A stretch of DNA of 64,000 nt from an uncultured Pseudodesulfovibrio sp. (GTDB lineage: Bacteria > Desulfobacterota > Desulfovibrionia > Desulfovibrionales > Desulfovibrionaceae): positions 3,306,001 through 3,370,000 of the forward strand of contig NZ_OY776488.1 in assembly GCF_963675635.1 (NCBI RefSeq). The letters run 5' to 3'. Made by a program: the position numbers and the translations under genes. This document shows positions 8,965 to 21,111 of the stretch, piece after piece. The notes beneath the pieces were generated by a model. The model was not told where the DNA came from. It was given only the letters and a program-made list of their open reading frames with translations, and did not search any database. Numbering within the stretch: position 1 is the first letter of the stretch; every line of letters starts with the position of its first letter.

Positions 8965-9014
8965 TTGCACATTGCACGGCATTTGTGCATTGTGTGTGCA
9001 GCTTGATGCACAAA
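8965..9014. promoter_or_regulatory. Cluster of TGTGCA/TGCACA half-sites, putative enhancer for the ZraR-like regulator
   Basis: TTGCAC occurs at 8965-8970 and 8972-8977, TTTGTGCAT at 8982-8990, TGTGTGCA at 8993-9000 and ATGCACAAA at 9006-9014. The units at 8982 and 9006 form a perfect 9-bp inverted repeat with a 15-base spacer. The cluster is 60-110 bp upstream of the sigma-54 promoter, the normal place for an NtrC-type activator. The same half-sites recur before the SHOCT gene (20957-21004). Confidence 0.65.
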
Positions 9015-9073: not shown

Positions 9074-9091
9074 TTGGCACAGCGTATGCAA
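9074..9091 (+). promoter_or_regulatory. Sigma-54 (RpoN) promoter of the zraP-like gene
   Basis: TTGGCACAGCGTATGCAA: the GG at 9076-9077 (-24) and GC at 9088-9089 (-12) are separated by exactly 10 bases, and TTGGCAC matches the -24 consensus perfectly. The start of transcription would be near 9101, 65 bases before the start codon. The operon encodes a sigma-54 activator, so the site makes biological sense. Confidence 0.85.
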
Positions 9092-9166
9092 GTTGAGTGG
9101 CAGAAGATAACACACACTCTCTTCATCCTGATTGCATAAAAACATTTTAATAATTTCGGAGGAACA

Positions 9167-9664
9167 ATGAACAAAAAGAACATCACCATCACGGCTTTGG
9201 CGGCGGTTCTGGTCCTGAGTATGGCTGCAATGGCCATGGCTGGTCAGGGGTATGGCAGAGGCCACGGAGGCGGTTACGGTTGCGGAGGCAACGGCGTCTA
9301 CAGCCAACTGACCCCGGAAAAGCAGGTCGCAGTTGACAAGATTTTTGATAAATATCAGCCTAAGTTCACCGAATTGCGTGACCAGATCTGGGCCAAGCAT
9401 GCCACGCTGCAGGCCATGGTCAATGGCGGCAACGCTGACGAGCAGAAGATCTCCAAGCTGACGACCGATATCACAAAGCTGCGCGATCAGATGCGTGATA
9501 CCCGTGACGCCATGCAGGTCGAGCTCGAAAAGGAAACCGGGATCGTGGCATTCAATGGTCGCGGTCAAGGTCGCGGTCAGGGCCGTGGTTATAACGGAGA
9601 TTGTTACGGACAGGGCGGTGGCGCCGGGCTTAATTGCACCGGACAGGGCCCCCGTTTTAATTAA
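9167..9664 (+). CDS. ZraP/Spy-like periplasmic metal-stress chaperone
   Basis: 165 residues with a signal peptide (1-25, cleaved after AMAMA). A glycine/histidine-rich stretch (27-43, including C39) precedes a helical LTxxQ-type domain (about 45-127: YSQLTPEKQVAVDKIF, then RDQIWAKHATLQAMV). The C-terminal tail is Gly/Arg/Gln-rich with Cys 146 and Cys 157. This matches zinc-resistance-associated ZraP and the CpxP/Spy family, which bind metal and buffer envelope stress. It is preceded by a sigma-54 promoter and followed by a kinase/regulator pair of the ZraSR type. Confidence 0.85.
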   Translation: MNKKNITITALAAVLVLSMAAMAMAGQGYGRGHGGGYGCGGNGVYSQLTPEKQVAVDKIFDKYQPKFTELRDQIWAKHATLQAMVNGGNADEQKISKLTTDITKLRDQMRDTRDAMQVELEKETGIVAFNGRGQGRGQGRGYNGDCYGQGGGAGLNCTGQGPRFN

Positions 9665-9670
9665 TAAATA

Positions 9671-9735
9671 TTTCCTATAACTAGGAAAACAGGACGCTTG
9701 CGGGACGGTCTGCCATGGTGGCGGCCGTCCCGCAA
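9671..9735 (+). other. Two inverted repeats between zraP-like gene and the membrane-protein gene
   Basis: TTTCCTA-TAAC-TAGGAAA (9671-9688), then an 11-bp perfect stem TTGCGGGACGG with CCGTCCCGCAA (9698-9708, 9725-9735, 16-base loop). Neither is followed by a T-run. They may act as RNA-stabilising or attenuating structures that let the chaperone be made in excess of the downstream proteins. Confidence 0.5.
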
Positions 9736-9811
9736 TAATAATAAACTTCACGAAGCTTCACGCGTAGGACTTGGCACAGTGGAGAACTTTTTTTGAGGAG
9801 GCATTTTGACC

Positions 9812-10627
9812 ATGAGGAAAATTACATCTCTGACAGGCCTTTTGTCTTTTCTTATCACGCTGTTGACCAGCGTGATTTTGTACATTGTGCCCGAGGGAAG
9901 GGTTGCCTATTGGGCGGACTGGCATATGCTCGGGCTGACCAAGACCCAGTGGGGGGATATTCACACCACCGTGGGGACGCTCTTCCTTGTCGTCATGTTT
10001 CTGCACATCTGGCTGAACTGGAAACCGCTCGTGGCCTATATGAAGAATCGGGCGCGTGAATTCGTGGTCATGACCGTGCCCATGATTATCAGCCTGGCAC
10101 TGACGCTGTTCGTCATTATCGGTACGCTGCTCGGTCTGCCGCCCATGCAGCAACTGCTTGATTTTTCGGCGGAGATAAAAGAAGAGGCCACAACCACATA
10201 TGGAAACCCCCCGTATGGGCATGCCGAAACCAGCCCGCTCATTAAATTCTGTGGATTCCTGGGTCTTGATGCCACAAAGGCCGTGGAGACCCTCCATGCA
10301 GCCGGGTATGACTCCACCATTAATGAACAGACGCTCATCAAGGATATTGCCCGTTCCAGAGGGACAAGCCCCCAACAGGTCTACGACACCATTCGCAGTG
10401 GGCAGAATGTTGACGTGTATGCATCCATGCCCGCTGTGCCGCCCGCCGGCACCGGCAAACTCAAGGTCGCGGATATCTGCAAGACGTACGGTCTCGATGT
10501 TGAAGACGTTCTTGCGAAGCTCAAGGCGGCTGGCATGGACGCCACTCCCGAAAGTTCCTTCAAGTCTCTGGCAGATCAGTACGGCGGTACTCCCAAGGAC
10601 GTGTATCTGATCATCAAAGGCGAGTAG
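9812..10627 (+). CDS. DUF4405-like (cytochrome-b-like) membrane protein with two C-terminal repeats
   Basis: 271 residues from the ATG at 9812; a TTG at 9806 is also possible, with GAGGAGG at 9795-9801 serving either. There are three membrane helices (about 7-26, 49-69, 83-109). Conserved His at 38, 51 and 65 in DIHTTVGTLFLVVMFLHIW fit the DUF4405 heme-b-like pattern. The soluble part has two homologous units of about 54 residues (143-197 and 217-270) sharing GLD, AAG-D-T and VY--I--G positions. The function is unknown; placement between the chaperone and the kinase suggests a redox or sensing role in the same stress system. Confidence 0.7.
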   Translation: MRKITSLTGLLSFLITLLTSVILYIVPEGRVAYWADWHMLGLTKTQWGDIHTTVGTLFLVVMFLHIWLNWKPLVAYMKNRAREFVVMTVPMIISLALTLFVIIGTLLGLPPMQQLLDFSAEIKEEATTTYGNPPYGHAETSPLIKFCGFLGLDATKAVETLHAAGYDSTINEQTLIKDIARSRGTSPQQVYDTIRSGQNVDVYASMPAVPPAGTGKLKVADICKTYGLDVEDVLAKLKAAGMDATPESSFKSLADQYGGTPKDVYLIIKGE

Positions 10628-10633
10628 CTGAAT

Positions 10634-12490
10634 ATGGAAATCGTTCACTCCGACGAAAAGGAGAAAGGCCCTCTTGTCGCTCTGGTCCTGGCACTTATCG
10701 TGCTGGGAGTGGGGAGCCTGTATCTGACTTGGCGGTCCATTGCGCAACAACGCAAGATCGTTGAGGATCATATGGTCATGACCGGCAATTCCATCCTGCG
10801 CGGTGTGGACAACAACATCCTGCGCATTGCCCGGAATCTGCGTATGACGCCGAACTCTCCCGAGCTCTTTCAGGCGATGTCCGAGGAATTGTTCACCGAG
10901 TTGACCAAATCTGAAGATATCGTCTTTGTCACGCTGTTCGGTGAGGATGGGCGTCCTCTCGTCTCATCAGCCGGTGAGGATACTCCCGTTTTCAGTCTGC
11001 CTGATTCCGTGACCAGCGATATTGAACCCGGCAGGGCGTGGCATGTTATGGCTCAAGTGGGCAAGAAGAGCGTCCTCATTTCCGGCTTACGTGCCCGTCC
11101 CGGTATTTCTACCCTGAGTGGAATGCCGCCTCTTGATGGGGCAGTAGAACATGGTTCAAACCACATGTCCCGCAGAGGACATGGGCAAGGATCAGGGCAG
11201 GGGCCGGGGCAGGGATTGCGACGCGGTTTGCCGATGGAGCCTGCTGAACCGCCTGTGTTTCTGGTGGTGGGCCTCAATGCGGAAAAGCACCTTGCCCAAT
11301 TCAGGCAATACCGTCGGGCTGCAACCTATCAGACCGGATACGTGTTTCTCGCCGCAGTGGTCCTCTGGTCGTTGGCGTTCGCGTATTTGCGACGTCGGGG
11401 CGCAAGTCGTCAACTGGTCCGTCTGGAACGGTTTCAGAGCAAACTGCTTGATAACATGCCGGACGGTCTCGTGACGCTTGCCGAGAGCGGTGAGATCCTG
11501 GCCGCAAACCATTCGGCCAAGAAACTCCTTGCCCCCGAAGGGGAAGATGGTGCGCCCGAAATCATCGGCACGAACTGGCACGATTTCGATTTTGGGAAAA
11601 CGCGTGAAGAAACTGGTTTTGTCGTGCCGTATGAATGGGAGCAGTTTGATTATCAGGGCCGTCAGCTTGAAATTCTGACGTTGCCGTTCCAGGAGTACGA
11701 CGACACTGCTGCCCCGGAACTCGGTCAACGGCTCGTGCTCATACGTGACCGAACACAGCTTCGATCACTCGAAGAAGACCTGAACGAAGCCAAACGGCTT
11801 GCGGAGATTGGTTCGCTGGCCGCAGGCGTTGCTCACGAAGTGCGCAACCCGTTGAGTTCTTTGCGCGGTTTTGCCCAGTTGTTTGCCACCAAGCTGAAAG
11901 GGCAGGCTCCGCTGGATCAATATGCTGCCGCCATGGTGCAGGAAGCGGATCGCCTCAATCGGGTCGTGACAGACCTGCTGTATCTGGCCCGTCCGAGACA
12001 GCTTGACCCCATGGAGATCGACCTTTCAAAGCTGGGTGACTCCATCAAGCAGCTCATGCGCTTTGACTTTCAGGACAAGGATACCGTGGCGGAGTTCAAC
12101 TTTGGCCCGGATTCTGTTTATGCGGACCAGGATGCGCTCAGGCAGATATTACTCAACCTTATTACCAACAGCCTTGATGCCATTGAAGGGTGTCCGGATT
12201 GTGCGAAACCGGGACAGATCCTGATGACGTCGGTTCAGGGCAAGGACGGGGTCTGGCTTATTGTGGCTGACAACGGACCTGGCATGGACCCCAATTTGGA
12301 AGGTGACGTGTTCAAACCGTTTGTTACCGGTAAGAAGACCGGCACGGGACTCGGGCTTGCCATCGTCCAGAATATCATGCGGGCACACAAGGGCGAAGTT
12401 GTCATTCACTCCGAATGGGGGAAGGGCACTGAAATGAAACTTTTTTTCCCGAAAAACACCGAAAGCGATGTTAAGGAAGCAGATATATGA
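10634..12490 (+). CDS. ZraS-like membrane histidine kinase
   Basis: 618 residues. Two membrane helices (13-32 and 233-252) bracket a periplasmic sensor domain that ends in a Gly/Gln/His/Arg-rich loop (about 177-199). A PAS-like domain (265-375) follows. The phosphoacceptor helix has His401 in AGVAHEVRNPLSSLRG, and the ATPase domain shows NLITNSLDAIEG, DNGPGMD and GTGLGLAIV. It starts 6 bases after the DUF4405-like gene and overlaps the regulator gene by 4 bases. It resembles ZraS/HydH kinases; the signal (metal, envelope damage or redox) is inferred from the neighbours. Confidence 0.88.
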   Translation: MEIVHSDEKEKGPLVALVLALIVLGVGSLYLTWRSIAQQRKIVEDHMVMTGNSILRGVDNNILRIARNLRMTPNSPELFQAMSEELFTELTKSEDIVFVTLFGEDGRPLVSSAGEDTPVFSLPDSVTSDIEPGRAWHVMAQVGKKSVLISGLRARPGISTLSGMPPLDGAVEHGSNHMSRRGHGQGSGQGPGQGLRRGLPMEPAEPPVFLVVGLNAEKHLAQFRQYRRAATYQTGYVFLAAVVLWSLAFAYLRRRGASRQLVRLERFQSKLLDNMPDGLVTLAESGEILAANHSAKKLLAPEGEDGAPEIIGTNWHDFDFGKTREETGFVVPYEWEQFDYQGRQLEILTLPFQEYDDTAAPELGQRLVLIRDRTQLRSLEEDLNEAKRLAEIGSLAAGVAHEVRNPLSSLRGFAQLFATKLKGQAPLDQYAAAMVQEADRLNRVVTDLLYLARPRQLDPMEIDLSKLGDSIKQLMRFDFQDKDTVAEFNFGPDSVYADQDALRQILLNLITNSLDAIEGCPDCAKPGQILMTSVQGKDGVWLIVADNGPGMDPNLEGDVFKPFVTGKKTGTGLGLAIVQNIMRAHKGEVVIHSEWGKGTEMKLFFPKNTESDVKEADI

Positions 12491-13878
12491 CTGAAGAACG
12501 CATTGTCCTTATAGTTGATGATGAGCCAGGCCATCGGATGATGGTCCGAGCCGTTCTTGAAGAAGAGAATTGGACTGTTCTCGAAGCCGAATCCGGCGAG
12601 CGGGCTTTGCAGGTACTGGCTGAAGAAGCCGAATCCGATACCTATCCCGATGTTGCCATGGTGGATATGAAAATGCCCGGTATGGACGGTATGCAACTGC
12701 TCAAGGAATTGCAGATCCGGCGATCAAGCATGCCTGTGGTTTTGCTGACGGCTTTTGGTAGTGTCGGCAGTGCCGTGGATGCCATGAAAAAAGGTGCTTT
12801 CGATTATCTGACCAAGCCGGCGGATAACGACGAACTGACCGCGGTCATTGGCAAGGCGTTCGAGTATCACAAGCTGCTTGAGGAGAATGTGCGGCTTCGG
12901 GCCGAAGTGAGCGGCGAGGTCGACTTCATCGGGGCCAGCCCCGGTATCGAGCGGGTGCGGGATCTCATAGGTCAGGCCGGACCTTCCGAAGCGACAGTGC
13001 TTATACTCGGCCCGTCCGGTACGGGTAAGGAACTGGTGGCCGAAGGGCTGCATCGGGCAAGCAATCGGGCGAACCGTCCGCTTATCAAGGTCAACTGTGC
13101 GGCTCTGCCGGATGATCTGTTGGAGTCCGAACTGTTCGGCTATGAAAGAGGCGCGTTTACTGGCGCAGTCAAAGACAAGCCCGGTCGGTTTCAGCTAGCC
13201 GACGGCGGCACACTGTTTCTGGATGAGATCGGTGAAATACCTGCTGCGCTTCAAGCCAAATTGTTACGTGCATTGCAGGAAAAGACCATCGAGCCTTTGG
13301 GGTCGATCAAGCCCATTCATGTGGACACACGTATTATCGCTGCGACCAACCGGAATCTGAAAAAAGAGGTTGATGCCGGACGATTCAGGGAAGACCTGTA
13401 TTATCGACTGGCCGTGTTGGAGATTCGTATTCCGCCGCTGGTTGAACGCAAGGAAGATTTGCCGCTTCTGGTCAGTTTTCTGCTGCGCCGCTTAGGTAAC
13501 AAGAACAACAAAATAATTCGTACAGTGACGCCTGCGTTTCTCGATGCGTTGTCCGGGTATGACTGGCCCGGCAATGTTCGCGAACTGGAAAATGTTCTGG
13601 AACGTGCCCTGATACTGTCCCGTGCGGATGCATTGGGCACGGACCTGTTGCCGCCGCAGATCACTGGTGCGCGTGAGGCCGCGATTCAATTTGATATTGA
13701 ACCGCAGATGTCCGCAATTCCGATGGCCCCTGCCAATCTGGAAGAGGCGGAAAAGCAGGCTATTATTCAGGCTTTGGAAGAAAACGGCAACCATCGCGAA
13801 CGCACGGCTGACGCGCTGGGCATCAGCCGCAGAACGTTGCAGTACAAATTGAAAAAGTACGGATTGACTCGGCGTTAG
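12487..13878 (+). CDS. ZraR-like sigma-54-dependent response regulator (NtrC family)
   Basis: 463 residues. The receiver domain has acidic pocket D11-D12 and phospho-acceptor D60 in AMVDMKMPGMDG. An AAA+ domain follows with Walker A GPSGTGKE, the sigma-54 contact loop GAFTGA (222-227) and Walker B GGTLFLDEIGE. The Fis-type HTH at the C-terminus reads RTADALGISRRTLQYKL. The start overlaps the kinase by ATGA, so the pair is coupled. Likely targets are the two sigma-54 promoters at 9074 and 20887, which share enhancer half-sites. Its stop overlaps the convergent gene by 4 bases. Confidence 0.93.
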   Translation: MTEERIVLIVDDEPGHRMMVRAVLEEENWTVLEAESGERALQVLAEEAESDTYPDVAMVDMKMPGMDGMQLLKELQIRRSSMPVVLLTAFGSVGSAVDAMKKGAFDYLTKPADNDELTAVIGKAFEYHKLLEENVRLRAEVSGEVDFIGASPGIERVRDLIGQAGPSEATVLILGPSGTGKELVAEGLHRASNRANRPLIKVNCAALPDDLLESELFGYERGAFTGAVKDKPGRFQLADGGTLFLDEIGEIPAALQAKLLRALQEKTIEPLGSIKPIHVDTRIIAATNRNLKKEVDAGRFREDLYYRLAVLEIRIPPLVERKEDLPLLVSFLLRRLGNKNNKIIRTVTPAFLDALSGYDWPGNVRELENVLERALILSRADALGTDLLPPQITGAREAAIQFDIEPQMSAIPMAPANLEEAEKQAIIQALEENGNHRERTADALGISRRTLQYKLKKYGLTRR

Positions 13879-15050
13879 TCTGTGACAAGCGCTTTGATTT
13901 CATCAATGCGCCCAAGATAGTCCTTTTGATAGATGGGGCCGCCGTCCGTGTAGCGTTCGGCGGTCTTTCTGTGAGCGTCGCACCACGCGGCCATGAGCGG
14001 ATTTCTGAAAATACGTCCATAGGTTTTTATCATGTGCAGTGTGTTGTGGCAGACCGGGGTCAGGTGTCCGGTCCGGGACAGCAGTTCGGTGTAGTCCGTG
14101 GCGAGATCGAGGAAGAATCCGCCCACGGCTTCGGCACACAGGTAATTGCCGCCTGACGAGAGTTTGTTCAACATCACGGTCTGGTTGAGCTTGCGTGGCT
14201 GCCACGGCCTGTTCCATTCCGTCGGGATGGTTTCGTTCTCAGCGTATTCGATACGACCTGTTTTCAGGAATAAAGCAATTTTCTCAGCCAGTCTCGGCCA
14301 CATGGACCCGATGTGTTCCACATCCCGACCAGCGTGCAGACCGGTGATGGCCCCGTCTGTTTCTTCAAGCGTGAACTTGAGGAAGGGACAGTGGCTTTCA
14401 ATGCCTGTGTCTGCTTCCCGCCAGATACCGCCGAAAATCCGGTTCATGTCCACGGTGTGGATATTGCCGAGTTCCCGTTCCCAGACTTTCAGGTGCGTCG
14501 GAGCCTCGCTGGAGAAGTTGTCCCAACCTTCGAGGTATGAGTATGGTTCCGGGCCAAAGGCTGGATAGGGTGACAGGCGGGAGACCACCACAATGGGGAG
14601 ATTCGGATGCATTCGCCGCAGTGTGGCGAGCATTTCGCCGTAGCGTTTCAGGTAGGTGGTAGGATTGGGCTGAATCATGCCGCACTCGGCTTTCATCCAG
14701 GCTTCCATTTTCGGGTGCGACTGCCAGACTACCGGGTCCATGAAAAAAATATACTTGTCCTGCTTGTGGATGAAAAGAGGCGTGTTTTCATGGAACAGGT
14801 TCATGACCATGAGCCTTGGCGGTGGGGCGTCGGGCGTAATTATCTGGAATTGATGGCTTGGCAGGCGACCATGAAAGAACGCTTCGAGCTGCATTTCGCG
14901 AACCATTCCGGCGAGTTCAGACGGTACCTGCCCGGGGTGGCTGGTTAATGTCAGCGGCGAGGCCAGAACGCGGTAGTTCACGTCAAAACCATGGTCTGCC
15001 ACGGCTCGGCTCAGGAAATCCATTTGACAGTTGCCTGAAAAGTAAAGCAT
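13875..15050 (-). CDS. Uncharacterised protein with N-terminal GNCQ motif (WcbI/SGNH-like)
   Basis: 391 residues, no signal peptide or membrane segment. It opens with LYFSGNCQMDFLSRAV, a Gly-Asn-Cys-Gln turn after a first strand. This is the start signature of WcbI-like proteins involved in capsule polysaccharide modification, with an SGNH-hydrolase-like fold. Later come VVVSRLSPYPAFG and a conserved HTVDMNRIFGG stretch. No polysaccharide gene is nearby, so the role is open. It is convergent with the zraR-like gene, and the two stop codons overlap. Confidence 0.5.
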   Translation of the reverse strand: MLYFSGNCQMDFLSRAVADHGFDVNYRVLASPLTLTSHPGQVPSELAGMVREMQLEAFFHGRLPSHQFQIITPDAPPPRLMVMNLFHENTPLFIHKQDKYIFFMDPVVWQSHPKMEAWMKAECGMIQPNPTTYLKRYGEMLATLRRMHPNLPIVVVSRLSPYPAFGPEPYSYLEGWDNFSSEAPTHLKVWERELGNIHTVDMNRIFGGIWREADTGIESHCPFLKFTLEETDGAITGLHAGRDVEHIGSMWPRLAEKIALFLKTGRIEYAENETIPTEWNRPWQPRKLNQTVMLNKLSSGGNYLCAEAVGGFFLDLATDYTELLSRTGHLTPVCHNTLHMIKTYGRIFRNPLMAAWCDAHRKTAERYTDGGPIYQKDYLGRIDEIKALVTD

Positions 15051-15109
15051 TCTTCATCCTTGCTGTTGGTGTCTTGAAAACTTTCACGAACCGGAGCCGT
15101 TCGTCAAGC

Positions 15110-15736
15110 ATGAGCAAAATGATAATAGAAACCTTTGTCCTCGGTATGGAAGAGACCAATAGCTATCTGCTCAGTTCGGGCGGTGAGGCTGTGGTCATCG
15201 ACGTGGGGACAGAGCCGCAACCGCTTATCAGGCGCATCAAGGAGCAGGGGCTGACCCTGACCGGCGTCTACATCACCCATTTTCATATAGATCATGTCGG
15301 CGGGGTGCAGGAACTTCTTGAGGAATTCCAGGTGCCTGTTTACATCAGCGGAGTTGACGAGTTCCTCAAGGAATTGTCTCTTGAAGCGGGTGGTTGTCGT
15401 GAACTTGTCGAATTTCTGGAGTTCCCTTTTGAAGAGATAGGTCCGGGGCGGCGCAAAGTGCTTGGACAGGATATGCTCGTGTTCGACACGCCGGGACATA
15501 CGCCCGGCAGTCTTTCGTATTTTTTCCCGGCGGCCGGGTGTGTCTTTGTGGGGGATCTTATCTTCATGATAGCTGTGGGCCGGACAGATCTGCCGCGCGG
15601 CAGTTCGTCTGAACTTCTCACGTCCATCCGCTCCCGCATTTTCATTTTGCCGGATGCAACACGCATTTATTCCGGGCACGGCCCCATGACGACGGTCATC
15701 CACGAGAAAGAGAATAATCCGCATTTTGTTCTTTGA
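15110..15736 (+). CDS. Metallo-beta-lactamase-fold hydrolase (glyoxalase-II-like)
   Basis: 208 residues from the ATG at 15110; the open frame extends 84 codons upstream, but that part overlaps the opposite gene and has no family similarity. An ATG at 15119 is an alternative. The zinc-binding motif is THFHIDHVGG, with the later ligands in DTPGHTPGS, FVGDLIF and YSGHGPMT. It resembles the short YcbL/GloB-like hydrolases that cleave thioesters such as S-lactoylglutathione; the substrate cannot be fixed. No strong ribosome site is visible (GGAG 14 bases upstream). Confidence 0.88.
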   Translation: MSKMIIETFVLGMEETNSYLLSSGGEAVVIDVGTEPQPLIRRIKEQGLTLTGVYITHFHIDHVGGVQELLEEFQVPVYISGVDEFLKELSLEAGGCRELVEFLEFPFEEIGPGRRKVLGQDMLVFDTPGHTPGSLSYFFPAAGCVFVGDLIFMIAVGRTDLPRGSSSELLTSIRSRIFILPDATRIYSGHGPMTTVIHEKENNPHFVL

Positions 15737-15956
15737 GTAACGGGCACCTTTTCTTTACTTTTTTTGTCGTGTCGGTGTAGTGTGCCTACACTTGTATCGG
15801 AACGGTCCGATAAAGGTGTGTCCATCATTCTGATAATGGTGGCTTCTTGCCCCATTATTCTTCGTATGTTCGCCTGTGGTGGCGGTTATTCTTCTGTCTT
15901 GAAACGTCAGGATTCCCGGATGGGATTTTTGAGAGCCGGAATACTTCGGAGTTGTC

Positions 15957-17198
15957 ATGAGAAACGTCAAAGTCAATATTTTCCTTACAGGGCTTTTCAT
16001 TCTTCTGTTCACGGTTCCCGCCTTGGCCGAGGATGCGAAGGTCTCGAAGTATGGCACGGTCACAGGTCAGGCCCGGCTGTATTATTTCACACAACGCAAC
16101 AAAACCACGGGTGAAGATTTCGACAACGTACGAGAGTCGCTGGCCCTGGGAGGATTTCTCAAATACGAGACTCCTTGGTTGGCTGACATGTTCGGTTTTG
16201 GCGCAGCTCTCTATGGTACGGCACCACTGTCCGGCGAACTGAATCAGAACGATCAGGGTGGGACCGGTCTTTTGACCAGCAAGAACGAAGGATTTGCCGC
16301 GCTCGGTGAAGCCTATCTCAAGGCCAGATATTCCAAGTCGGAAATGCGGTTGTGGCGGCAGCGTCTTGAGACACCGTTTATCAATAGCAACGACAGCCGC
16401 ATGATCCCCCAGACTTACGAAGCGTATGGTATCAAATCGAGTGATATAGAGAATCTCACTTGGAGCCTGTATTGGGTGGACAAGGAAAAGGCGCGCGATA
16501 CCGAGCTGTTCAAGTCCATGTCTGACATGGCAGGACTGGATGGAACGCACGGTGGCGTCTTCATGGCCGGCGCTGACTGGACGCCTGTTGAAAAGCTGCC
16601 TTTGAGATTCTGGAACTATTATGCGCCTGATCTGGACAATACTTTTTTTGCCCAGGCGAACTATTCTTTCGGCAACCCTGATGACATCGGTTTCACTGTG
16701 CTGTTTCAGGGCGTTGATCAACGCAGTGTCGGGGACGAACGCGCAGGGGAATACGGTACGGCAGAAGGCGGTCTCAAAGGCGGCGTCACGTTCAACGGTT
16801 TCACCTTTGATGTGGGTGGAACCATTGTCGGCAATTCGGCCGGTATCCGTAATTCCTGGGGCAACTATCCGTTCTTTAACAACCTGATGAGTTATGCCTT
16901 TAACCGGGCCGGAGAAAAAACCCTGTATCTCGGTGTCGGCTATGATTTCAGCAGGCTGGGAGCCAAAGGGTATACCGCGGACATCAAGGCCGGTTTCGGC
17001 GATACGCCTGATTCCGGAGATAACGCTTCGTTCGACCGGAATGAATACAACCTGAACCTGAGTTACGCCTTCGACGGCGACCTTGAAGGATTATCCATTC
17101 TGAATCGTTGGTCATATCAGGATGCCGACGAAGATCTTGGTGGTCGGGACGGGTATCAAGTGCGGCTGCGGTTCCAGTATAATTTCCAGTTGTTGTAA
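15957..17198 (+). CDS. OprD-like outer-membrane porin
   Basis: 413 residues with a signal peptide (1-24, ending VPALA). The mature protein alternates short aromatic/hydrophobic strands and acidic loops (GQARLYYFTQRN, LKARYSKSEMRLWRQRL, RSYQDADEDLGG-type loops) and ends with beta-strands (VRLRFQYNFQLL), as expected for an 18-strand barrel. The start strand, the QRLETPFINSNDSRMIPQ segment and the length match the OprD family, which passes small solutes such as amino acids or organic acids. A GGAG site precedes the ATG. It appears to be a single-gene unit; the substrate is unknown. Confidence 0.8.
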   Translation: MRNVKVNIFLTGLFILLFTVPALAEDAKVSKYGTVTGQARLYYFTQRNKTTGEDFDNVRESLALGGFLKYETPWLADMFGFGAALYGTAPLSGELNQNDQGGTGLLTSKNEGFAALGEAYLKARYSKSEMRLWRQRLETPFINSNDSRMIPQTYEAYGIKSSDIENLTWSLYWVDKEKARDTELFKSMSDMAGLDGTHGGVFMAGADWTPVEKLPLRFWNYYAPDLDNTFFAQANYSFGNPDDIGFTVLFQGVDQRSVGDERAGEYGTAEGGLKGGVTFNGFTFDVGGTIVGNSAGIRNSWGNYPFFNNLMSYAFNRAGEKTLYLGVGYDFSRLGAKGYTADIKAGFGDTPDSGDNASFDRNEYNLNLSYAFDGDLEGLSILNRWSYQDADEDLGGRDGYQVRLRFQYNFQLL

Positions 17199-17326
17199 GG
17201 GAAAGTCCATCTTGTTTTCTTCCAGCATGGTGACCCATGGTTTTTTACTATAAAGCACTTTTTCTTCCCGAGTTTTTCTTTTAAGGTTAATACTCGGCTC
17301 GCTTCACAAAACCTGAGGGAAAATTC

Positions 17327-18394
17327 ATGGCAGACGAAACCGTCTACAATGGCAAAAAAAACGAAATTGCGCCTGAGATGCTTGAGGCTGCAAAAAAAGT
17401 ATTGGTCAGCAGATTTAAGTACATAAAGAAGCCAGATGAATCCATGAAGCGACTGGCCCGGCTTGGTGCCGAGCATGTGGCGCGGGATATGGCGGTAAGC
17501 CCCGAGAGATACGCGCCCATGTCTTTTGATGAAGGGCTTTCTGAAGTGGCTCCCCTGGACCCGTTGGATATCCTGCGTCAGGATCATCAGCTTCCGGCTT
17601 TGCCGCAGGTTTTTCTGGAATTGCAGCAGGCTATTTCCAGCACCTCTACCTCCGCTGATGATCTGGCTGAAATCATCAGCCAGGACCCGGGACTGACCGC
17701 ATTTCTCCTGCGCATGGTCAATTCCGCATTTTACAGTCTGCCTATGCAGATTGATACGATTTCCCGTGCTGTCACCGTTGTCGGTGTCAACCAGCTCTCC
17801 ACCCTGGCCGTGGGTACATCGGTCATCAGTCTGTTTAAGGATATTCCCGAGGAAGTGCTCGATATGGAGCAGTTCTGGAAGCACTCCGTGGCCTGCGGTC
17901 TTATCGCCAGGCGTTTGTGTCGCATTACCGGACAGGGTGATCCAGAGCGTGCATTTGTTTCGGGGTTGCTCCACGACATCGGACAGCTCATCATGTTGCA
18001 GGCAGAGCCGGAACGTGTTGCCGCGGTCCATGTCCATGCCCGGAGTAAGAACACTCTGCTGTTTGAAGTAGAGAAAGCCCTGCTCGGTTTCGACCATGCG
18101 ACCCTCGGAGGCATGCTGCTGAGGAAATGGAATTTCCCCTTTGTGCTCGTGGCCGCTGTGCTGGAACACCACCATCCTAAGGTCAGTCAGAAGGAAGCGG
18201 AACCCGCATTGGTTCATTGTGCCGAAACAATCGCCACCGGCCTCGGTATCGGTTCCAGCGGTGAGTATTTTGTTCAGCCTCCAGATATGGACGTATGGGC
18301 CTCCATGGGGCTGACGCCGGACCGCATTGACGAGATGGTCGAGGATCTGGACGAGGAGCTGGAAGAGGCCTTCCAGATTCTCATCAAGCAATAG
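17327..18394 (+). CDS. HDOD-domain signalling protein
   Basis: 355 residues. After an N-terminal helical part (1-75), an HDOD domain (about 80-285) begins at LPALPQVFLELQQAI, continues with DPGLTAFLLRMVNSAFYS, and has the degenerate HD helix GLLHDIGQLIML. A short acidic tail closes the protein. HDOD proteins are non-catalytic relatives of HD phosphohydrolases and usually act in signalling or motility control. The ATG has GAGGG 8 bases upstream. It is followed by the NifU-like gene 102 bases later. Confidence 0.88.
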   Translation: MADETVYNGKKNEIAPEMLEAAKKVLVSRFKYIKKPDESMKRLARLGAEHVARDMAVSPERYAPMSFDEGLSEVAPLDPLDILRQDHQLPALPQVFLELQQAISSTSTSADDLAEIISQDPGLTAFLLRMVNSAFYSLPMQIDTISRAVTVVGVNQLSTLAVGTSVISLFKDIPEEVLDMEQFWKHSVACGLIARRLCRITGQGDPERAFVSGLLHDIGQLIMLQAEPERVAAVHVHARSKNTLLFEVEKALLGFDHATLGGMLLRKWNFPFVLVAAVLEHHHPKVSQKEAEPALVHCAETIATGLGIGSSGEYFVQPPDMDVWASMGLTPDRIDEMVEDLDEELEEAFQILIKQ

Positions 18395-18496
18395 CGAAAG
18401 TATGTCGCGGTCGCTTGGAACAACGGTCCAATTGACAGCCTTGGCACAAAACCTTACTTCTCAACGTCCGAATACTCATTGACGGAGACTCATATC

Positions 18497-18718
18497 ATGC
18501 GTGAAAAAGTTGAAGCTGTTCTCGATAAGGTCCGGCCCATGTTGCAGTCCGATGGCGGTGACGTGGAGTTGGTGGATATCACTGATTCCGGTGTGGTTCA
18601 GGTGCGACTTGTCGGGGCCTGTAAAGGGTGCCCCATGTCCCAGATGACCCTCAGGAACGGCATAGAACGAATCGTTCTCAAAGAAATACCCGAAGTCAAA
18701 GCTGTCGAGGCTGTATAA
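18497..18718 (+). CDS. NifU-like C-terminal-domain iron-sulfur scaffold
   Basis: 73 residues from the ATG at 18497, preceded by GGAG; a TTG 18 bases earlier is less likely. The whole protein is one NifU C-terminal domain: VRPMLQSDGGDVELVDI, then the cluster-binding CKGCPMSQMTL, then a GIERIVLKEIPEVK end. Such stand-alone Nfu proteins carry and hand over Fe-S clusters. A hairpin-rich non-coding region lies between it and gltX. Confidence 0.93.
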   Translation: MREKVEAVLDKVRPMLQSDGGDVELVDITDSGVVQVRLVGACKGCPMSQMTLRNGIERIVLKEIPEVKAVEAV

Positions 18719-18981
18719 CCCGGCTTTCGCTCGCTGTGGATACGTGCAGTCGAAAGGCTCGTGGCAGTTCTCGACGTACTCAGGTACGCTAGTGAAAATC
18801 ATGAAGCCTTTTACTTACGTATGTTCATGATTTTCAAAAGCGTTACAGTACGCTTGGGTAGTGTAAATATTTTATGGAAGTAACCACCGCGTTCGCATTT
18901 CTTCGCGAAGCGCGATAAAAGTTTTGGAGATGCTCAATACCCTTTTTCAAAAGGTTCTTGAGCCGCCGGAGGCATCCCATC
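18719..18981 (+). repeat. Hairpin-rich intergenic region, possible dispersed repeat before gltX
   Basis: This 263-base stretch has no gene. It contains a 13-bp perfect inverted repeat (TGAAAATCATGAA at 18793-18805, TTCATGATTTTCA at 18824-18836) and AGCGT/ACGCT arms just after it. Nearer gltX come a palindromic TTCGCGAA and then the string CGCCGGAGGCAT. I recall related CGCCGGAGGCAT blocks as dispersed intergenic repeats in Desulfovibrio genomes. The GGAGG of the block also serves as the gltX ribosome site. Only a genome-wide search can show whether it is repeated. Confidence 0.4.
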
Positions 18982-20379
18982 ATGACCAAGATCGTTTCTC
19001 GTTTTGCACCCAGCCCGACTGGGTATTTGCATATTGGCGGTGCCCGTACCGCATTGTTTTCATGGCTTCTGGCCCGTGCCGCCGGCGGAGAGTTCCGTCT
19101 GCGGATCGAAGATACGGATCGTGAGCGGTCCACACAGGAAGCCACGGACGCCATCATTGATTCAATGAAATGGCTCGGCCTTGAACATGATGGCGAGATC
19201 GTGTTTCAGTCCTCCCGTGTCGACCGGCACAATGAGGTCATTGACCAGCTCATCGAAAATGGTCACGCATACTACTGTCAGTGTTCCAAGGAAGACGTGG
19301 ACGCCATGCGTGAAAAGGCCATGAAAGAAGGCCGCAAACCTAAATATGACGGGAGCTGCCGTGAAAAGGGACTGACCGAAGGCGTGGTCCGTCTCAAGGC
19401 ACCGCAGGAAGGGGCCACCGGCTTCAACGATATGGTCAAGGGTCCGATCAACGTCGAGAATAGTGAGATGGATGATATGATCCTGCGCCGTTCCGACGGC
19501 ACGCCGACCTACAACCTGGCTGTTGTAGTGGATGACCACGACATGGGCGTAAACCATGTCCTGCGCGGCGACGACCATGTGAATAATACTCCACGCCAGA
19601 TTTTGATCTATCGTGCCATGGGGTGGGACGTGCCGCAGTTCGGTCATGTCCCCATGATTCTCGGCCCGGACAAGAAAAAGCTCTCAAAGCGTCACGGAGC
19701 ACTGTCTGTCATGGAATATGAGAAAATGGGCTACCTGCCTGAAGCAGTGACCAACTATCTTGCCCGTCTCGGATGGTCCCACGGCGACCAGGAATTGTTC
19801 ACAATGGACGAGATGGTGGAGATGTTCTCCACGGATAACCTTGGAAACTCGCCTTCAGTCTTTGACCTGACAAAATTTGAATGGGTCAACGGTCAGTATA
19901 TGCAAAAGGCCGAACCCGAGCGGTTGGCTGAGCTGCTGTGCGACTTCCTGACTCGTGAAGTGGGTGAAGAAGAAGCGGCCGGTGTGTCCAAGGCTGATTT
20001 TGCCAGGATCGCTCCGTTGCTCCAGCCTCGCGCCAAATCCATTGTAGATATGCTGGAACAGTCTCGTCCGTTCATTGTGGATGCGAGCTTCCTGCCCTAC
20101 GATGAAGCGGCTGTGAAAAAGTTTCTGACCGAAGAGACCAAGCCGTTGCTGGAAGAGATTGCCCAGCGCATAGAGGCTCTTGATGAATTCACCGAGAAGT
20201 CTCTCGAGGACGTGCATCGTCAGTTTCTTGAAGACAAGGATATCAAGTTCAAGGCCATTGCTCAGCCCATCCGAGTGGCCATTATGGGCAAGACGCAGTC
20301 TCCCGGTCTGTTCGAAACCATGATAGTTCTTGGCAAGGAGCAGACTCTTGCCCGCATGAAACGAGCTGTGGAGCTGTAA
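18982..20379 (+). CDS. gltX: Glutamyl-tRNA synthetase
   Basis: 465 residues from the ATG at 18982; the frame is open from a TTG 24 bases earlier, but the family start MTKIVSRFAPSPTGYLHIGG fixes it. The HIGH-type motif is YLHIGGAR and the KMSKS-type motif is KKLSKRHG (about 232-239). The C-terminal anticodon-binding cage follows. It charges tRNA-Glu. The length and motifs are those of an ordinary bacterial GluRS. Transcription ends at the hairpin at 20516-20550. Confidence 0.97.
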   Translation: MTKIVSRFAPSPTGYLHIGGARTALFSWLLARAAGGEFRLRIEDTDRERSTQEATDAIIDSMKWLGLEHDGEIVFQSSRVDRHNEVIDQLIENGHAYYCQCSKEDVDAMREKAMKEGRKPKYDGSCREKGLTEGVVRLKAPQEGATGFNDMVKGPINVENSEMDDMILRRSDGTPTYNLAVVVDDHDMGVNHVLRGDDHVNNTPRQILIYRAMGWDVPQFGHVPMILGPDKKKLSKRHGALSVMEYEKMGYLPEAVTNYLARLGWSHGDQELFTMDEMVEMFSTDNLGNSPSVFDLTKFEWVNGQYMQKAEPERLAELLCDFLTREVGEEEAAGVSKADFARIAPLLQPRAKSIVDMLEQSRPFIVDASFLPYDEAAVKKFLTEETKPLLEEIAQRIEALDEFTEKSLEDVHRQFLEDKDIKFKAIAQPIRVAIMGKTQSPGLFETMIVLGKEQTLARMKRAVEL

Positions 20380-20515
20380 CAGACGGTTTGTCATAACGGC
20401 GCGGCTGCACATTTTTCAGGTAGCGATTGATCTGCAACGTGGCCCGAAAAAATCATCCCTGCGCCCCCCTTCTAAGACCTCGGGGTACAGAAGACTGCCT
20501 TCAATAAACATACGT

Positions 20516-20550
20516 AAAGCCCCCGCCGGAAGAGATTCGGCGGGGGCTTT
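20516..20550. terminator. Bidirectional rho-independent terminator (gltX / SHOCT gene)
   Basis: A 13-bp perfect stem AAAGCCCCCGCCG with CGGCGGGGGCTTT and a 9-base loop. It lies 137 bases after gltX and 26 bases after the stop of the convergent SHOCT gene, with A before and T after the stem. Confidence 0.88.
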
Positions 20551-20576
20551 GTCATGGGGAGGTGGTTGTTCAATCG

Positions 20577-20855
20577 CTAAATCTTCTGTAAATCCTTTTT
20601 CATGGATTCATACGTCTGTGCATCGATTTCTCCGGCGGCGTACCTGCGCCTGAGAATATCTTCAGCTCTGTCGGGTCCGCTGCTTGTGGCGGGTTTTCGA
20701 AACATGCGGACCGTGAAATATATGATAAGTCCGATAATGATGAGCTGGAATATTCCACCGAAATGAAATGGCATCCATCCACCCATACCGTGCCCGCCGC
20801 CTTGCCAAAAGGCTGGTCCGCCGCACCAATTGCCTATCGTGCTGAAAAATTCCAT
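20577..20855 (-). CDS. Small SHOCT-domain membrane protein
   Basis: 92 residues. A Gly/His/Trp-rich N-terminus (WCGGPAFWQGGGHGMGGW) is followed by one membrane helix (about 34-50) and a SHOCT domain (AEDILRRRYAAGEIDAQTYE). SHOCT modules are short oligomerisation tails whose exact role is unknown. The ATG has GAGAGGT upstream. Its promoter is a sigma-54 site almost identical to that of the zraP-like gene, so it probably belongs to the same stress regulon. The His/Gly-rich start could bind metal. Confidence 0.85.
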   Translation of the reverse strand: MEFFSTIGNWCGGPAFWQGGGHGMGGWMPFHFGGIFQLIIIGLIIYFTVRMFRKPATSSGPDRAEDILRRRYAAGEIDAQTYESMKKDLQKI

Positions 20856-20886
20856 ATGAGCACCTCTCCGTGTTTTGTTTCAAAGG

Positions 20887-20904
20887 TTGCATAGGCTGTG
20901 CCAA
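20887..20904 (-). promoter_or_regulatory. Sigma-54 promoter of the SHOCT gene
   Basis: On the minus strand TTGGCACAGCCTATGCAA, with GG (20902-20901) and GC (20890-20889) exactly 10 bases apart. It differs from the zraP promoter (9074) at one of 18 positions. The transcript would begin near 20877, about 22 bases before the start codon. Confidence 0.82.
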
Positions 20905-20956
20905 GTTATAAATGTATGAATACCAGCCGTTTGCCGAAATTGGCTCTGGCTAAATA

Positions 20957-21004
20957 TGTGCATGTGTGCATTTGTGTGCACTCCGTCTGACAGAAAATTG
21001 CACA
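20957..21004. promoter_or_regulatory. TGTGCA half-site cluster upstream of the SHOCT promoter
   Basis: TGTGCA occurs at 20957-20962, 20965-20970 and 20975-20980, and TTGCACA at 20998-21004. The cluster starts 55 bp upstream of the -24 element. The same half-sites lie before the zraP-like gene, so the ZraR-like regulator is the likely ligand. Confidence 0.62.
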
Positions 21005-21111
21005 GAATCGTGGCAGAAGATTGCGAGACCGTCTCAGTCGTAAGAAATGGTGAGGGGGCTGCATATATGAAACCGCTATGGTTTCAGCCCGTCTGCCTCG
21101 TTGAAGAAAAG

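Follow-up and report, generated by a model that had tools for sequence, protein, structure and literature searches.

Do two almost identical predicted sigma-54 promoters in one 64,000-nucleotide stretch of an uncultured Pseudodesulfovibrio genome belong to a single regulon, and does that regulon reach further? The stretch analysed (hereafter the window) spans C1:3306001-3370000 in a genome that forms a single contig of 3,519,027 bases. One promoter precedes an operon for a ZraP-like chaperone with its own ZraSR-like kinase and regulator, and the other precedes the gene of an uncharacterised SHOCT membrane protein. The first-pass annotation had proposed from this pair a small, dispersed regulon. 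Genome-wide pattern and profile searches support that proposal well and add a third member, a structured RNA encoded outside the window. We consider it likely that one ZraR-like regulator activates all three, namely the chaperone operon, the SHOCT membrane protein and the stress RNA. The new elements are the SHOCT protein as a member and, to a greater degree, the RNA with its conserved structure.

Both 18-base cores lie where they had been annotated, with a single base of the 18 different between them. Each shows what is looked for in a sigma-54 promoter, that is GG-N10-GC spacing, the TGGCAY..TGCW elements and putative activator sites upstream:

9074..9091, + strand: predicted sigma-54 promoter of the zraP operon, TTGGCACAGCGTATGCAA (18-mer, profile match)
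8966..9012, + strand: four exact TGTGCA/TGCACA half-sites (starts 8966, 8984, 8995, 9007), presumed regulator sites upstream of zraP
20887..20904, - strand: predicted sigma-54 promoter of the SHOCT gene, TTGGCACAGCCTATGCAA, read from 20904 to 20887 (18-mer, profile match)
20957..21004, - strand: four exact TGTGCA/TGCACA half-sites (starts 20962, 20970, 20980, 21004) upstream of the SHOCT gene

The half-sites stand 68-109 bp (zraP) and 59-101 bp (SHOCT) before the TGG of the core; the first-pass annotation gave 60-110 and 55-100 bp. With up to three mismatches the 18-mer matched twice within the window, against 0.09 matches expected in shuffles. In the whole genome the exact 18-mer occurs at two places alone, both inside the window; three mismatches brought in four further places, and a reversed control pattern gave six in total, the same overall number. 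A looser consensus (TGGCAC-N5-TTGCW, one mismatch) matched five places in the window versus 3.1 expected. Since the bare sigma-54 consensus is this common in the window, the weight rests instead on the 18-mer, the half-sites and conservation.

For the search beyond the window, a profile (R1) was trained on 29 zraP promoters, none of them from this genome, and all SHOCT promoters were excluded. Full-length sites were found in this genome at zraP (38.4 bits), at a third place (36.3 bits) and at SHOCT (29.3 bits), and in the next match (20.3 bits) the promoter half alone was covered. The third site, C1:3060278-3060395 (-), is 255 kb away and outside the window, which is why this core member was absent from the first-pass annotation. 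The pattern TGCACA-N45-75-TGGCAY-N6-TGCW likewise occurs genome-wide at three places (zraP, SHOCT and the third) and nowhere in the reversed control; core and half-sites together are thus not scattered before many unrelated genes. Its TGTGCA form, with N50-80, matched zraP, the third place and one more place, missed SHOCT and gave no control matches. The extra place, C1:474852-474953 (-) of the same genome (G000; locus L072), is absent among the R1 matches listed.

How far is this arrangement conserved? Homologue searches for the SHOCT and ZraP-like proteins covered 149 family genomes. Exact half-sites lie upstream of each of the ten closest SHOCT loci (L009-L018), nine of which have a scored promoter, L015 reading TGGCAC-N6-TGT instead; 30 zraP loci have half-sites throughout and a scored promoter in 29 cases. 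In the genus g7 the SHOCT gene is far from zraP (on the same contig, at least hundreds of kb apart, in G117 and G048; on a different contig in G129), yet the promoter type is kept in G117 and G129 and, in its TGT form, in G048. A census of 36 Pseudodesulfovibrio genomes with R1 gave 145 rows; 20 that spanned the promoter half only (model start at 54 or beyond) were omitted, and the remaining 125, two of which (L150, L202) lack GG-N10-GC at the match end, were read and sorted by downstream content. A promoter was found with zraP in 34 genomes, with SHOCT in 28 and with the third target in 29, and the whole trio is present in 25 of the 36. At every genus locus of the three classes (34/34 zraP, 29/29 SHOCT, 31/31 third target) exact half-sites are seen 40-130 bp upstream, and each of two downstream control windows contained them in 0-2 loci per class. 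From this count eight of the 125 rows, all of class 'other', were dropped for lack of TGGCAY-N6-TGY, and 14 of the 23 rows left in that class have half-sites. One genome without a zraP match, G139, has a weak R1 match (L208, 20.8 bits) before a DUF4405-like frame and a kinase.

One could suppose that the window promoters are alike through recent promoter duplication or by chance and share no control, and the presence of just two sites in the window would fit this. The zraP and SHOCT promoter regions are dissimilar beyond the core, however, and each promoter is conserved separately over many species with its half-sites at a near-constant distance, which makes such an origin hardly credible. Chance or duplication of the 18-mer was rejected on four computed results: its rarity in the genome, the R1 profile result, the trio census and the conservation of the half-sites.

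Half-site spacing bears on a second alternative, that the SHOCT gene and the RNA answer to a different NtrC-type regulator that recognises a similar site, rather than to the one encoded in the zraP operon. In 16 of 34 zraP loci the closest half-site lies 68-71 bp away, versus 59-61 bp in 20 of 29 SHOCT and 23 of 31 third-target loci (15 of the SHOCT loci have it at 59 bp and 20 of the third-target loci at 60-61 bp). Desulfovibrio vulgaris offers a precedent, in that DVU3384 has two listed regulators and a non-coding RNA (ncRNA) falls under DVU1419, not DVU3381 (PMC4641369, PMC3333781; these and all papers below are cited from parts of their content). Against a second regulator, a model built from zraP promoters alone picks exactly these three places at full length, and all three classes have the same half-sites. 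On balance we regard a second regulator as rather improbable and retain a single ZraR-like regulator, whose binding we infer from this co-occurrence.

Across the 149 family genomes, among the matches listed, R1 matches coincide with homologues of the kinase's sensor region in 84, and 48 have neither; eight have R1 alone and nine the kinase homologue alone. Three points temper the case for one regulator. This co-occurrence count ignores the kinship of related genomes; the zraP census count is partly so by construction, as 8 of the 29 R1 rows come from the genus itself; and a SHOCT gene with promoter was not found in 8 of the 36 genus genomes, nor the RNA in 7 of the 36. Among the ZraP-like matches listed, a ZraP-like row stands no more than about 1 kb from at least 5 of the 50 SHOCT rows (G077:C144, G013:C11, G148:C1 at 742 kb, G134:C105, G098:C37). 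Such neighbourhoods favour a functional tie between the SHOCT and ZraP-like proteins, physical contact aside.

Several single loci of the SHOCT class deserve mention. In G148 (L145) the SHOCT copy is broken by an in-frame TAG while promoter and half-sites are intact, and G152 has two SHOCT genes (L157/L158) 8.4 kb apart with one promoter each. On G077:C99 (L284) an R1 match precedes a frame that appears secreted by eye, with a SHOCT gene coming next. L170 (G004) and L177 (G046) are R1 promoters about 11-12 kb from zraP, convergent with it, at the position that SHOCT occupies in relatives; no SHOCT gene was found downstream of either, and CCTC occurs five and three times, respectively, in 300 nt.

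What does the third promoter drive? Its predicted transcript is about 300 nt long (C1, from about 3060268 down to 3059963, - strand). Of 29 rows, 27 measure 287-318 nt from the ATG-proximal end to the terminator, and in L090 and L113 our script found no terminator. A 336-nt stretch of this genome folds far better than its shuffles (z -7.0). We aligned 28 rows (alignment A3; L118, one of two near-identical genomes, was omitted) and found two hairpins inside a reading frame plus the terminator, with 98.4% of 827 cells paired and 55 double-change cells (14.6 for shuffles, 2-9 for slid controls). The most conserved part comes after the stop codon and reads GCATATACCATACCTCC..AACCTC..CCCCTCCTC..GACCTC..terminator. 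By computation the locus has the marks of a small RNA gene, with its own promoter, conserved structure and an intrinsic terminator; Rfam returned weak matches only, none above any family's gathering score.

The motif CCUCC/CUCCU is repeated in these RNAs well beyond expectation (156 copies where shuffles give 45.0; 95 versus 19.7 for the 3' part alone), and in the 3' part its mean unpaired probability is 0.78 against 0.44 overall. The induced RNA would, we propose, repress translation by pairing of these repeats with Shine-Dalgarno sequences. A single long anti-ribosome-binding-site target was tried and rejected: AAGGAGGTATGGTATATGC, the complement of the conserved 3' stretch, matched with up to three mismatches the RNA gene and one three-mismatch place, with one match in the reversed control as well and none in the window. 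Across genome contigs an exact 3'-part pattern occurs in two contigs of Pseudodesulfovibrio and in one of Bacteroidales, the Bacteroidales occurrence being put down to chance.

The same transcript may also serve as an mRNA. Every one of the 29 rows has an ATG 10-12 nt past the end of the promoter, which would leave a message with little or no leader. The frame that starts there runs for 62-68 codons and includes a hydrophobic stretch. That frame is open in all 29 rows, compared with 2 and 8 rows for the other two frames across 60 codons, and its gaps in A3 (columns 114-129 and 164-166) have lengths of 3, 9, 12 or 15. The median ratio of nonsynonymous to synonymous substitution rates (dN/dS) is 0.77 over 402 pairs, which leaves the evidence for a protein moderate; strong RNA constraint, in the form of the hairpins, lies inside the frame. 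We suggest from these sequence patterns that the third transcript may additionally act as an mRNA, leaderless or almost so, that encodes a membrane peptide of 62-68 residues.

If the open frame, the fixed ATG and the gap lengths are given most weight, the transcript could be a small-membrane-peptide mRNA only, its hairpins and CU-rich tail serving stability or termination with no regulation in trans. The part past the stop codon is the most conserved one, however; six genomes of the genus have the promoter before sequences without the usual frame; and the g7 counterparts described below show CCUCC in the terminator loop. We therefore think a purely coding role unlikely and prefer a translation-repressing RNA that possibly encodes a peptide. 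The six variants comprise G149 and G156, in which a CCUC-rich sequence follows, and G139, G155, G167 and G168 (loci L087, L143, L147 and L163), in which a different frame of 85-90 codons replaces the usual RNA. A second third-type promoter was also seen in G046 and G004, 424 and 542 bases from the first, the G046 copy being followed by a weak frame match.

Outside the genus we chose by eye 60 R1 rows, mostly not beside zraP, among the matches listed. A zraP match lies downstream in four and a SHOCT match in three, and many of the 60 stretches precede ordinary reading frames. Some unlinked R1 sites in other genera precede short CU-rich sequences that end in strong terminators. In g7 (L238-L241, L243-L245) an R1 promoter far from zraP is followed by about 130 nt with a strong terminator and CCUCC in its loop, unpaired at 0.91-1.0 in 7/7 folded (7 of 8 rows). 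In g28 (L265, L267, L268) near-identical CU-rich sequences roughly 105 nt long, their terminator stem measuring 13 bp, follow the R1 match. We compared eight groups, chosen by eye, for CCUCC content: g7 and the pooled g2/g31/g35 rows are clearly enriched, and the g21 signal comes from three of six rows.

Several results speak against this reading of the RNA and its peptide. CCUCC/CUCCU is not enriched in three of the eight groups, namely g28 (3 versus 2.5), g38 (9 versus 6.8) and the six variant loci of the genus itself (16 versus 11); within the frame most copies are paired (unpaired probability 0.38); the genome holds no near-perfect long target beyond the RNA gene itself; and the dN/dS given above weakens the peptide part. 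It is with corresponding reserve, and with somewhat more doubt than belief, that we extend the reading to much of the family. Across these Desulfovibrionaceae-type sulfate reducers a ZraR-like sigma-54 regulator would drive a ZraP-type operon together with fast-diverging anti-Shine-Dalgarno RNAs; the Pseudodesulfovibrio RNA would have a dual function, as leaderless membrane-peptide mRNA and translation-blocking 3' module, with SHOCT as a third arm. Its odds are slightly lowered by two literature results discussed below, the DVU1419 precedent and a copper response. The genes after R1 matches at L150, L187, L199, L269, L271, L276, L277 and L287, which by eye we take to be of TolC type, of DUF2318 type or H/M-rich and secreted, hint at a metal connection.

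As the first-pass annotation had stated, the operon between the two promoters encodes a sigma-54 activator; its genes and the SHOCT region are as follows:

9167..9664, + strand: ZraP-like periplasmic protein, Metal_resist PF13801 (family search)
9818..10627, + strand: DUF4405 membrane protein (alternative start 9806)
10634..12490, + strand: sensor histidine kinase, ZraS/AtoS-like, under the NCBI cut-offs
12487..13878, + strand: NtrC-family response regulator, presumed from sequence to regulate all three promoters
20577..20855, - strand: SHOCT protein, 92 aa, with one hydrophobic segment and a W/C/H/M-rich N-terminal segment
20519..20547, - strand: GC-rich hairpin followed by TTT on the minus strand (by eye), a possible end of the SHOCT transcript

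The product of 9167-9664 is of ZraP type by its PF13801 score (53.9 bits, cut-off 29.2); its sole solved relative at E <=0.1 is ZraP 3lay (E 4e-10), and it is the sole Metal_resist match in the whole genome. The regulator has the NtrC-family build, with a receiver, a sigma-54 activation domain containing GAFTGA and a Fis-type helix-turn-helix. Scores stay far under the NCBI equivalog cut-offs for ZraP (47.1 of 200 bits), ZraS (214 of 479) and ZraR (406 of 760), so 'ZraSR-like' denotes resemblance and no membership; the regulator in fact scores better with AtoC (457.9 bits, cut-off 714) than with ZraR. The sensor part of the kinase includes an H/G/Q-rich stretch (window 11150-11280) that by eye resembles the G/H-rich parts of the ZraP-like protein and is a possible candidate for a metal-binding loop. 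The SHOCT domain (PF09851) scores 27.6 bits in the window protein (cut-off 27) and 29.3 bits in the genome search, where 20577-20855 is the sole match at E <=0.001. A terminator scan of 20350-21100 reported none, the 20519-20547 hairpin included, and the SHOCT region had no match among plasmids.

In the model that we favour, the ZraSR-like two-component system (10634-13878) would sense envelope or metal stress, and its NtrC-family regulator would bind the TGTGCA/TGCACA half-sites that precede three sigma-54 promoters by about 60-110 bp. Its targets would be its own zraP-DUF4405-kinase-regulator operon, the SHOCT gene and the RNA of about 300 nt. Activation would place the ZraP-like chaperone in the periplasm and the small SHOCT protein in the inner membrane, and the RNA, if produced, would pair with mRNAs and perhaps yield its peptide. 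In this way the model assigns the uncharacterised SHOCT membrane protein to the response to envelope or metal stress, a role open to testing. If the model is true, a structured, possibly peptide-coding RNA would couple chaperone production to a halt in other protein synthesis.

Among known systems, GlmY/GlmZ are small RNAs with a sigma-54 promoter and an activator, and the quorum RNA of Vibrio fischeri is reportedly another; their regulators, structures and targets are unlike those here. A closer relative may be found in D. vulgaris Hildenborough, whose DVU3384 we take to be ZraP-like. There, DVU3381 is listed with the targets DVU3382-DVU3381 and DVU3384 under 'envelope stress response' (PMC4641369) and was included in gel shifts of predicted motifs (PMC3333781), DVU3384 being labelled hypothetical in print. 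By description the DVU3381 regulon resembles ours in its sigma-54 response regulator, its own kinase-regulator operon and a nearby gene, and differs in listing neither a SHOCT gene nor an RNA. A complication for a single regulator is that DVU3384 is named as a target of DVU0621 as well (PMC3333781), so that one promoter may have two regulators.

In Escherichia coli the direct ZraR targets are given as zraP, zraSR and mgtA (PMC7657598). ZraPSR shares with our system a ZraP-type periplasmic protein, a sigma-54 response regulator and a role in envelope stress, and lacks, in that account, an RNA or SHOCT target; the ZraSR-type response would thus gain an RNA arm missing from it. In D. alaskensis G20, zraP was lowered by Cu(II) (log2 fold change -8.56; PMC8836040), which speaks against simple copper induction. 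The word SHOCT is absent from the main texts of PMC4641369, PMC3333781 and PMC12316311; the main text of a predicted-ncRNA study of O. alaskensis G20 (PMC11124144) does not contain sigma54, zra, envelope, Shine or two-component; and titles and abstract openings of the top-ranked open-licence PMC literature offered no report of the link proposed here.

The RNA arm has two partial parallels. In manner of working the nearest, by description, is LhrC of Listeria monocytogenes, an RNA under an envelope-stress two-component system with redundant CU-rich sites in loops and single strands; unlike our RNA, it is not sigma-54 dependent and no peptide frame is described for it (PMC4132741). In D. vulgaris, a table in PMC4641369 places four ncRNAs under DVU0653, DVU0679, DVU1419 and DVU2359, and the targets of DVU1419 include an ncRNA upstream of DVU3282, under 'envelope stress response, posttranscriptional regulation' (PMC4641369, PMC3333781). 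Compared by description, the DVU1419 regulon is of the same kind as ours, in that a sigma-54 regulator is listed with its own operon plus one more gene and an ncRNA; its operon is described as having three genes, unlike ours. The DVU1419 regulon could be the true counterpart of the one proposed here. If our regulator is the DVU1419 orthologue, the RNA arm is already partly known. The precedent in any case makes the arm proposed here less surprising but easier to place.

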